Assembly: GCA_028723545.1 (NCBI GenBank)
Contig: JAQYER010000059.1
Location: 1 to 33,276 of the forward strand
Length of the DNA: 33,276 nucleotides
Direction of reading: 5' to 3'
From: Caryophanales bacterium
Lineage (GTDB): Bacteria > Bacillota_I > Bacilli_A > RFN20 > CAG-826
Position numbers and translations under genes: made by a program. Of the stretch, positions 3,022 to 22,674 are shown one piece after another (the stretch's first letter is position 1; each line of letters opens with the position of its first letter). The notes under the pieces were generated by a model. It made no database searches. It saw only the letters and a program-made list of their open reading frames with translations, and was not told the origin of the DNA.

Positions 3022-3282
3022 TTATTTCAATAAAAATAATTTAATTGCTTCCGCAACTGAACTGCTATTTTCAGTATTTCCAGAAACAGATAAATCTTTA
3101 AATATTTCTTTAATTTGTTGGATTAATGATCCAGCTGCCCAGTCTTCTAATGATAAAAATAAAGCAGCGACAACACAAACGACGAGAACAGCAACTAAAG
3201 CAGGAATAAATTCTTCTCTCTTTGGCCATCTAACACGTTTGCCTTCTTTGATTACTTCTTGTGCGTATTTTTTAACACCCAT
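3022..3282 (-). CDS. secE: Preprotein translocase subunit SecE
   Basis: EVIKEGKRVRWPKREEF motif followed by one TM helix; located between rpmG and nusG. Confidence 0.9.
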   Translation of the reverse strand: MGVKKYAQEVIKEGKRVRWPKREEFIPALVAVLVVCVVAALFLSLEDWAAGSLIQQIKEIFKDLSVSGNTENSSSVAEAIKLFLLK

Positions 3283-3497: not shown

Positions 3498-3516
3498 TAT
3501 GATTCAATTGAATTGA

Positions 3517-3576
3517 TTTTATATGTCTCTTATAAAGTGTTTAAAATTTTATATGTCTCTTACAAAGTGTTTAAAA
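3517..3576. repeat. Two adjacent 30-bp direct repeats, ttttatatgtctct-ta[t/c]-aaagtgtttaaaa
   Basis: 3517-3546 and 3547-3576 differ at one base (3532 t / 3562 c). Confidence 0.95.
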
Positions 3577-3620: not shown

Positions 3621-4229
3621 TTACTTTAATAAAATTTTAATATCATTTAGTACTGTACCTTCTTTATCATCTTCCAATAATCTTCTTACTTGAGCGACTG
3701 AGATTTTTAATTTTTCAGCAATTTCATTAATTGTGTAGCCATCTTTTTTTAATTTTAATACTGTGGCTTGGTTACTATTTTTTCCTTTTTTTCTACTTGG
3801 ACTAGATAAAATCAAATTTAATTGATTTAATTCATAATTTTTTCGCGGATCTTCATCGTTAGAGCCAACAATATCATGAAAAGTCGAACGAGTTGATATT
3901 TCGGAATCTAAATTAATGGGGTTCATTGATATACATTCTTGTTGATATTTATCAATTAATTTAAGTAAATCTCTAACAAATATCGTTCTAAATAAAACTC
4001 TAATAGGACACCCATATTGATAATGTGAAAAAGTGGTTAATATATCTTGGTACGCTAAACAATAAGCGTCTTCAACATCAAAACCTTTAATGTTATTTTG
4101 CGTTAATACATTGTAAATTATTCCTTTCGCGCACGTAAAAAGACGATTAACTAATTCGTTGTAGACTTGTTGATTTCCACGCGCTGCTAATCGATATAAT
4201 TGTTCGTCAGAAGCCGATTCAAATGACAT
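3621..4229 (-). CDS. sigH: Sigma-70 family RNA polymerase sigma factor, SigH-like by position
   Basis: Region 2-like N-terminus (…GFDVEDAYCLAYQDILTTFSHY…) and C-terminal HTH (GYTINEIAEKLKISVAQVRRLLE); flanked by rlmB and rpmG-secE-nusG as in Bacillus. Confidence 0.75.
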   Translation of the reverse strand: MSFESASDEQLYRLAARGNQQVYNELVNRLFTCAKGIIYNVLTQNNIKGFDVEDAYCLAYQDILTTFSHYQYGCPIRVLFRTIFVRDLLKLIDKYQQECISMNPINLDSEISTRSTFHDIVGSNDEDPRKNYELNQLNLILSSPSRKKGKNSNQATVLKLKKDGYTINEIAEKLKISVAQVRRLLEDDKEGTVLNDIKILLK

Positions 4230-7253: not shown

Positions 7254-7448
7254 TTAATCAATAAAATAATATCCGCATAAACTAGATAAAACATCATCAT
7301 TTAGAAAGGCAATATAGTCTAAAGACATATCACTAACATTTATTCTATAAACAAAATATTTAGGCCTTTTATATTCATCATTAGAATCATGGCTTATAAG
7401 AACATATAAATTGTTATTTGAATAATAAAAACTGCTAGGCGAGGCCTA
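7254..7448 (-). pseudogene. Start-less ORF remnant (…FYYSNNNLYVLISHDSNDEYKRPKYFVYRINVSDMSLDYIAFLNDDVLSSLCGYYFID*)
   Basis: About 64 open codons ending at TAA (7254-7256), no plausible start near the 5' end; in-frame TAG just upstream within the rplQ terminator. Confidence 0.45.
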
Positions 7449-7473: not shown

Positions 7474-7869
7474 TTATTTAACAAATTCAACAATAACTAA
7501 TTTTGCGTTATCGCCTTTACGAACTCCAGCTTTAATTCCGCGAGTGTATCCACCATTACGTGATACATAACGAGGACCGAGTTCATTAAATAATTTTTCT
7601 AAAGCTGTAACATCATTTTCCTTGTAATTGCGAACAACTGCTGCGGCTTGACGACGTGCATGTAAATCACCACGTTTTGCAAGAGTTACTAAATGATCCG
7701 CTAAAGATTTAATTGCTTTAGCTTCGCCACTAGTAACAGTGACACGTTCATTAAGGACTAATGTAGTAACAACGTTTCTTAAATAATTTTCATGTTTAGA
7801 TTTTGTGTAAGCGGCTTTGAAGCGAACACCTGTTTTTCCATGAACATTTTTACGACCTTGTGCTGCCAT
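7474..7869 (-). CDS. rplQ: 50S ribosomal protein L17
   Basis: NVHGKTGVRFKAAYTKSKHENYLRNVVTTLVLNERVTVT; downstream of rpoA. Confidence 0.95.
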   Translation of the reverse strand: MAAQGRKNVHGKTGVRFKAAYTKSKHENYLRNVVTTLVLNERVTVTSGEAKAIKSLADHLVTLAKRGDLHARRQAAAVVRNYKENDVTALEKLFNELGPRYVSRNGGYTRGIKAGVRKGDNAKLVIVEFVK

Positions 7870-7881
7870 AATATTTCTCCT

Positions 7882-7975
7882 TTATTTTGTGGTATTTCCT
7901 TGATTAATTAATATTATTTCAAGGTTTCTGACCTTCAATAAGCTTATAAAATAAGCACATTATCGAAGACATTTT
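7882..7975 (-). pseudogene. Decayed, internally deleted partial copy of the rpoA 3' end within the rpoA-rplQ spacer
   Basis: 7920-7937 identical (18/18) to rpoA 8072-8089; 7951-7975 matches rpoA 8188-8212 at 22/25; 7882-7905 loosely matches the rpoA stop-proximal end (from 7995); all in the same order and orientation. Confidence 0.7.
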
Positions 7976-7994
7976 TCTACTAGCTAAATTTAAA

Positions 7995-8984
7995 TTATTC
8001 AGCAGTATAATCCTTGAATGAAAGACCTAATTCAAGTAATTTATCTTTAACTTCTTTAAGTGATTTCTTTCCAAGGTTTCTGACCTTCATCATTTCTTCT
8101 TCAGTTTTTTGAGTTAATTCAGCAACTGTAGCAATAGCTGCTCTCTTGAGACAGTTATTTGAACGAACAGAGAGGTCAAGTTCTTCGATAGGCATATTTT
8201 CGAAGACATTTTCGACTACTTGAACTTCTTCTTTAATCATGTTGATTTCTTCAACAGCTTGTTCAAGTTCGACGAATGGACGGAAGTTTTCAACGAGCAT
8301 TTCTGCCGCTAAAGCGACAGCAGTTTGTGGCTTCATTGATCCGTTTGTCCAAACTTCGAGAGTTAATTTATCGAATTTTGAATCGTGGCCAACACGAGTT
8401 GGTTCAACGAAATATCTTGCTCTTGTGACTGGTGAATAATTTGAGTCTGTAGCAATTAAACCGACTTCTGTACCGTGTTCTTTGGCGGTTTTACGATCTG
8501 GTTTATTAGCTTCAGATGTAACATATCCACGTCCATTACGAGCATGAAGTGTCATCTTAAGATGTCCACCTTCAGTAACATGAGCAATAACGAGATCAGG
8601 ATTAATAACTTCAACTAACCCTGGAGTGCGAATATCTTGAGCTGTAACGACCTTTGGTCCTTCGACATCAATTTCGAGGAGTTTTGGTTCGTTGTCTTCG
8701 TCATCGATACGAAGAACTAAATCTTTAAGATTGAGAATGATGGCGGTAACGTCTTCTTCAACACCTTTAAGTGCACTGAATTCATGACGGGCACCTTCGA
8801 TTTCGACCGCAAATACGCTTGCGCCTGGAAGGCTTGATAATAATACTCTACGAAGTGAATTACCAAGTGTAAGTCCGTATCCTCTTTCAAGTGGTTCGAT
8901 AACGAATCTTCCAAATTCGCCAGTTGCATCGACAGTTGCTACTTTGAATATAGCTTTTTCGAATGGTTTTGCTAATTTTGCCAT
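7995..8984 (-). CDS. rpoA: DNA-directed RNA polymerase subunit alpha
   Basis: GNSLRRVLLSSLPGASV; CTD with LDLSVRSNNCLKRAAIATVAEL…VRNLGKKSLKEV. Confidence 0.98.
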   Translation of the reverse strand: MAKLAKPFEKAIFKVATVDATGEFGRFVIEPLERGYGLTLGNSLRRVLLSSLPGASVFAVEIEGARHEFSALKGVEEDVTAIILNLKDLVLRIDDEDNEPKLLEIDVEGPKVVTAQDIRTPGLVEVINPDLVIAHVTEGGHLKMTLHARNGRGYVTSEANKPDRKTAKEHGTEVGLIATDSNYSPVTRARYFVEPTRVGHDSKFDKLTLEVWTNGSMKPQTAVALAAEMLVENFRPFVELEQAVEEINMIKEEVQVVENVFENMPIEELDLSVRSNNCLKRAAIATVAELTQKTEEEMMKVRNLGKKSLKEVKDKLLELGLSFKDYTAE

Positions 8985-9003: not shown

Positions 9004-9393
9004 TTATCCACGTGGACGCTTTGGTGGACGGCATCCGTTGTGTGGAATTGGTGTAGTATCGGTAATTGATAATACTTGTAATCCAGCTGTTGCAAGTGAG
9101 CGAACAGCAGATTCACGACCTGGACCTGGACCTTTGACTAATACATCAACTGTACGAAGTCCTTGATCATATGCAGCTTTACCAGCAGATTCACCAGCGA
9201 GTTGAGCAGCAAATGGTGTGCTCTTCTTTGCGCCTTTGAATCCTAATGCTCCTGCACTACTCCATGCAATGACATTACCTTGTTCATCAGAAATAGTAAT
9301 GATTGTGTTATTGAAAGTAGAGTGAATGTGTGCGACACCCTTAGTATATGCACGTTTAATTTTTTTCTTACGTGAATTTGATTTTGTTGCCAT
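9004..9393 (-). CDS. rpsK: 30S ribosomal protein S11
   Basis: [20 protein letters not shown]…[14 protein letters not shown]. Confidence 0.98.
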
Positions 9394-22125: not shown

Positions 22126-22437
22126 TTATAACTTGATATCAATATCGACACCGCTTGGAAGATCGAGCTTTCTTAATTGTTCGACAGTTTCCTTGGTTGG
22201 ATTTTTGATATCGATTAATCTTTTGTGTGTTCTAATTTCAAATTGTTCACGAGAATCTTTGTACTTATGGACAGCACGTAAGATTGTGTAAACTTGACGT
22301 TCCGTTGGGAGCGGAATTGGGCCAACAACACTAGCGCCAGTTTTTTTCGCTGCAATTACGATCTTTTCAACAGACATATCGAGTACTCTGTGATCATAAG
22401 CTTGAAGACGAACCCTGATTGTTTTACTTTTCGCCAT
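22126..22437 (-). CDS. rpsJ: 30S ribosomal protein S10
   Basis: [21 protein letters not shown]…[16 protein letters not shown]; strong SD GTAGGAGG. Confidence 0.98.
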
Positions 22438-22461
22438 GAATTTTTCCTCCTACATTTCTTT

Positions 22462-22563
22462 TCAGGCATTTAACGATGCTCCATGCGAATTACCTGATCA
22501 CCAATTTCATGACAACGCCTGATGGTGTATCAGCAACCTCGCATATCAATGCAGACGTTAACG
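22462..22563 (-). ncRNA. Structured 5' leader of the S10 operon (candidate L4-type autoregulatory leader)
   Basis: Nested helices on minus: TTAACG…CGTTAA, TGC…GCA, ATGCGA…TCGCAT, CTGAT(a)CACCA…TGGTGATCAG. Confidence 0.65.
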
Positions 22564-22569
22564 ATTGGT

Positions 22570-22598
22570 ATAATACTCCTATATTTTATATAAGGCAA
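22570..22598 (-). promoter_or_regulatory. S10 operon promoter
   Basis: Minus TTGCCT (22593-22598), 17-nt spacer, TATTAT (22570-22575). Confidence 0.65.
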
Positions 22599-22628
22599 CA
22601 ATTTTTTTATTATTTTTTCCGAAAGTTA

Positions 22629-22662
22629 ACAAAAAGCTGAGTGATTTCCACCCAGTTTTTTT
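22629..22662 (-). terminator. Intrinsic terminator after the acyltransferase gene
   Basis: Minus AAAAAAACTGGGTG-GAAAT-CACTCAGCTTTTTGTT. Confidence 0.8.
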
Positions 22663-22674
22663 GAAATTTTTTTG

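Follow-up and report, generated by a model that had tools for sequence, protein, structure and literature searches.

Why do rpoA and rplQ, which are separated by only 2–19 bp in related bacteria, stand 125 bp apart in the genome of an uncultured gut-type Bacilli species, and where could the additional sequence have come from? The window, that is, the whole stretch of 33,276 nucleotides analyzed here, comprises one entire contig (C59) of a fragmented draft genome (1.32 Mb in 166 contigs). Its minus strand carries a ribosomal-protein/RNA polymerase operon, the 3' end of which is formed by rpsK (9004–9393), rpoA (7995–8984), and rplQ (7474–7869). The rpoA ORF encodes the RNA polymerase alpha subunit of 329 aa with the Pfam domains RNA_pol_A_bac, RNA_pol_L, and RNA_pol_A_CTD, the CTD being intact, and the rplQ ORF encodes ribosomal protein L17 of 131 aa (Pfam Ribosomal_L17). 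According to these gene boundaries the spacer occupies positions 7870–7994 of the minus strand, and the feature, originally delimited at 7882–7994, is better bounded by this whole interval.

Spacer length in relatives

Among named relatives, the closest to the source organism are metagenome bins from rumen and gut that carry the labels Bacillales, Bacilli or Erysipelotrichaceae and whose RpoA is no more than 78% identical. The gap between rpoA and rplQ is 2–14 bp long, essentially a Shine-Dalgarno sequence, in 16 out of 16 congeners where both genes were read together, and 2–19 bp long in the further family members parsed. Apparent longer gaps in L024 and L062 arose from the choice of a later rplQ start codon, the other parse yielding 13 and 19 bp.

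No homologous spacer was found in the 24 genomes of the genus and 146 of the family that were searched; the searches produced a few short matches at the chance level, three of them in the family, and those in L113–L115 are located outside rpoA. The original prediction had suggested comparing the spacer in close relatives, where conservation of its motif independently of rpoA would have spoken against a duplication, and we observe that the motif is absent from them. As the gaps of congeners are only 2–14 bp long and a homologous spacer is not seen in any of these genomes, approximately 110 extra bp have been gained in the lineage of the window, in a species sampled by one genome.

The segment adjacent to rplQ (7870–7881, minus strand; AGGAGAAATATT) is the ribosome-binding segment of this gene, equal in length and type to the whole spacer of congeners, e.g., AGGAGAAAATAA and GGAGGAACATTAA.

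Segments shared with rpoA

Two blocks of the spacer, both on the minus strand, align with minus-strand segments of rpoA. The first block (7951–7975) is identical in 22 of 25 positions to rpoA 8188–8212, which encodes the beginning of the CTD (NVFENMP), and the second one (7917–7937), in 20 of 21 positions to rpoA 8069–8089, encoding KVRNLG of the CTD, with a core where all 18 positions match (7920–7937 vs. 8072–8089). In the coding-strand numbering, spacer positions 20–44 correspond to rpoA nucleotides 773–797, and positions 58–78, to nucleotides 896–916, so that the blocks are colinear with rpoA and retain its strand and orientation. The 18/18 and 22/25 matches had been noticed in the original prediction, and we find both at the same coordinates, in the claimed order and orientation. 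The distance between the blocks is 98 nt in rpoA vs. 13 nt in the spacer, and hence about 85 nt would have been lost between them. A gapped alignment of the spacer covers rpoA nucleotides from approximately 748 to 990, its last bases being the TAA that immediately precedes AGGAG.

Compared with the window's own rpoA, the two blocks are identical in 42 of 46 bases, as opposed to 27–33 of 46 for the rpoA genes of congeners. Moreover, RpoA of the window has ENVFENMP, the counterpart in congeners being ENKFENMP, ENKLENMP or a close variant; the spacer contains the window's own GTC (V) codon, the congeners having AAA (K). The high match to own rpoA together with the common lineage-specific codon identifies the rpoA gene of this very species as the source, and the block identities and the GTC codon place the copying later than both the codon change and the divergence from every sampled congener. 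Four substitutions in 46 positions of the recognizable blocks have occurred since then.

In dinucleotide-preserving shuffling of the spacer, proposed along with the initial observation as a control for chance, none of 20,000 shuffles reached the single-match score of 18, and none reached the colinear-pair score of 34, the shuffle maximum being 27; hence, shuffles provide no equally good colinear matches. A less strict test with gaps allowed gave one shuffle in 2,000 above the single score of 18, and therefore the evidential weight lies on the colinear pair, not on the 18-mer alone. As a control based on real spacers, we compared all 234 gaps of 40–600 bp from approximately 785 kb of the same genome with both flanking genes of each. 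The rpoA–rplQ spacer is a clear outlier in these 468 comparisons (pair score 34 vs. 25 for the runner-up), and no comparable duplications were found elsewhere among these gaps. When the spacer was searched blastn-style against all 1.32 Mb of the genome, the same two rpoA segments were the top two non-self matches.

A looser resemblance had been reported between 7882–7905 and the stop-proximal end of rpoA. In our alignment this candidate third block (7882–7904, minus strand) pairs TCAAGGA-AATACCACAAAATAA with the rpoA end TCAAGGATTATACTGCTGAATAA, and its TAA stands directly before the ribosome-binding segment, exactly where AGGAGAAATATT begins. The match is suggestive only: a free local test gives it no significance, 2,436 of 5,000 shuffles being as good, and it stands out (0/5,000 shuffles) solely when anchored at the stop codon, the anchor having been picked after the alignment was seen.

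The remainders of the spacer at the 5' end (about 19 nt), in the middle (about 13 nt) and at the 3' end (about 35 nt) individually have no homology above chance. In all, approximately 67 nt before the ribosome-binding segment, or about half of the spacer, are without detectable homology, the blocks being approximately 91% identical. Short local direct and inverted repeats (GCTTAT...ATAAGCTTAT; GCTTATTTTATAAGCTTAT), absent from the corresponding part of rpoA, are observed in the middle of the spacer, at 7915–7955. The coding strand of the spacer has stops in all three frames, and most of the CTD is missing, so that no functional product can be encoded, in line with the earlier view that the copy is not a working CTD.

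Origin of the spacer

The spacer likely is what is left of a partial tandem duplication that covered the alpha-CTD-encoding part of rpoA, the extra copy having since been mostly lost. Under this scenario, in which the size of the duplicated unit, its origin in one event, and its decay through deletions are inferred, the alpha-CTD part of rpoA, some 240 bp from approximately codon 250 through the stop codon, would have been duplicated in tandem in the species' own lineage. The upstream copy would have remained attached to the body of the gene and served as the working CTD, and the downstream copy, following the stop codon, would have become an untranslated spacer, free to decay. About half of its length may then have been deleted, with substitutions and stops gained and two or three short islands left, and the original short (about 12-bp) ribosome-binding segment would have remained directly before rplQ. 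No present function would be required.

Tandem duplication had been suggested in the original prediction, and the homology with rpoA of the same species, the colinear order, and the restriction to one lineage speak for it, but the stop-proximal match is weak, about 67 nt have no homology, and a patchy templated insertion is not cleanly separable from it. Uniform neutral decay predicts alignable remainders, so that the account has to include additional indels or short insertions. The unaligned parts may reflect such small indels, AT-rich filler or a patchwork templated insertion.

The latter process could also account for the entire spacer, if short rpoA stretches were copied by template switching or error-prone end joining and combined with AT-rich filler. 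Such an origin is consistent with high-identity islands being separated by sequence without detectable homology, and with the short local repeats of the middle segment (GCTTAT...ATAAGCTTAT). We nevertheless consider it unlikely, as two or three patches in the gene order and orientation, ending at the stop by the ribosome-binding segment, are more simply explained by one collapsed duplicate.

The copied pieces might also have been kept as an RNA structure in the rpoA–rplQ message, affecting rplQ translation or mRNA processing. In the predicted minimum-energy fold the islands act as stem arms (the beginning of block 2 pairing with block 1, and block 2 also with the possible block 3), reversion of two of the four block substitutions weakens the fold by approximately 4 kcal/mol, and a longer stretch including the flanks has z = –2.8. 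However, z is –1.75 for the spacer alone (49 of 1,000 shuffles are as good), the spacer ranks 41st of the 83 similar gaps between co-directional genes in this genome, and there are neither Rfam matches nor homologous spacers for covariation. Retention of the pieces as RNA structure is quite improbable on these folding data, and the same holds for co-option of the CTD copy, with the islands forming an intercistronic hairpin that would tune rplQ relative to rpoA; if true, it would mean that a new regulatory spacer was born from a duplicated coding segment. A regulatory role of the spacer is not supported by the modeling. A structured RNA leader of a ribosomal-protein gene was considered as well and rejected, with no Rfam match in either the locus or the whole window and folding at the genome background (41/83). 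A promoter scan around the spacer found none, and the only terminator-like site (7436–7448, plus strand) lies beyond rplQ, outside the spacer.

The similarity could also be coincidental, the DNA being AT-rich, or the product of misassembly, and one could cite for this the single shuffle of 2,000 beating the single-match score and the 166 contigs of the draft. Both may be dismissed almost entirely: the colinear pair is absent from 20,000 shuffles and is not equaled by any other real spacer compared, misassembly by collapse or duplication would yield exact copies, yet the islands have substitutions, and the nearest contig end is 7 kb from the locus.

Related systems and other sites

The event is genuine and specific to this lineage; it is of an ordinary type, found in an unusual place. 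With bacterial pseudogenes and remnants of partial tandem duplications in general (e.g., the prokaryote pseudogene survey PMC522871) the spacer shares the features of a disabled, shortened, non-coding copy of a neighboring gene, eroded by deletions. Unlike those, it retains only about 46 clearly recognizable bp and resides within a ribosomal-protein/rpoA operon that is tightly packed elsewhere. Francisella has second copies of rpoA, which are whole expressed genes; extra rpoA-derived sequence is present in both cases, but the spacer studied here would be a CTD-only relic, not a whole gene. No precedent for an rpoA–rplQ duplicate was found in the literature searched. The locus may serve as a datable case of a compact essential operon gaining a longer spacer from a neighboring coding segment and then eroding it, and suggests tolerance of partial duplications that involve RNA polymerase alpha, with the understanding of any mechanism unchanged.

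Several other sites were observed along the way. In the window, a 30-bp unit (ATTTTATATGTCTCTTACAAAGTGTTTAAA) occurs in two tandem copies, 96% identical, at 3516–3576, between the called genes 3022–3282 and 3621–4229. The gap at 22438–22674, upstream of the 103-aa ORF 22126–22437, the first gene of the ribosomal operon and probably rpsJ, has z of approximately –3.6 relative to shuffles and no Rfam match, and is a possible leader. The strongest-folding intergenic gap in the surveyed part of the genome (z approximately –7.3) is found on another contig, C74 (L218:8884–9016).
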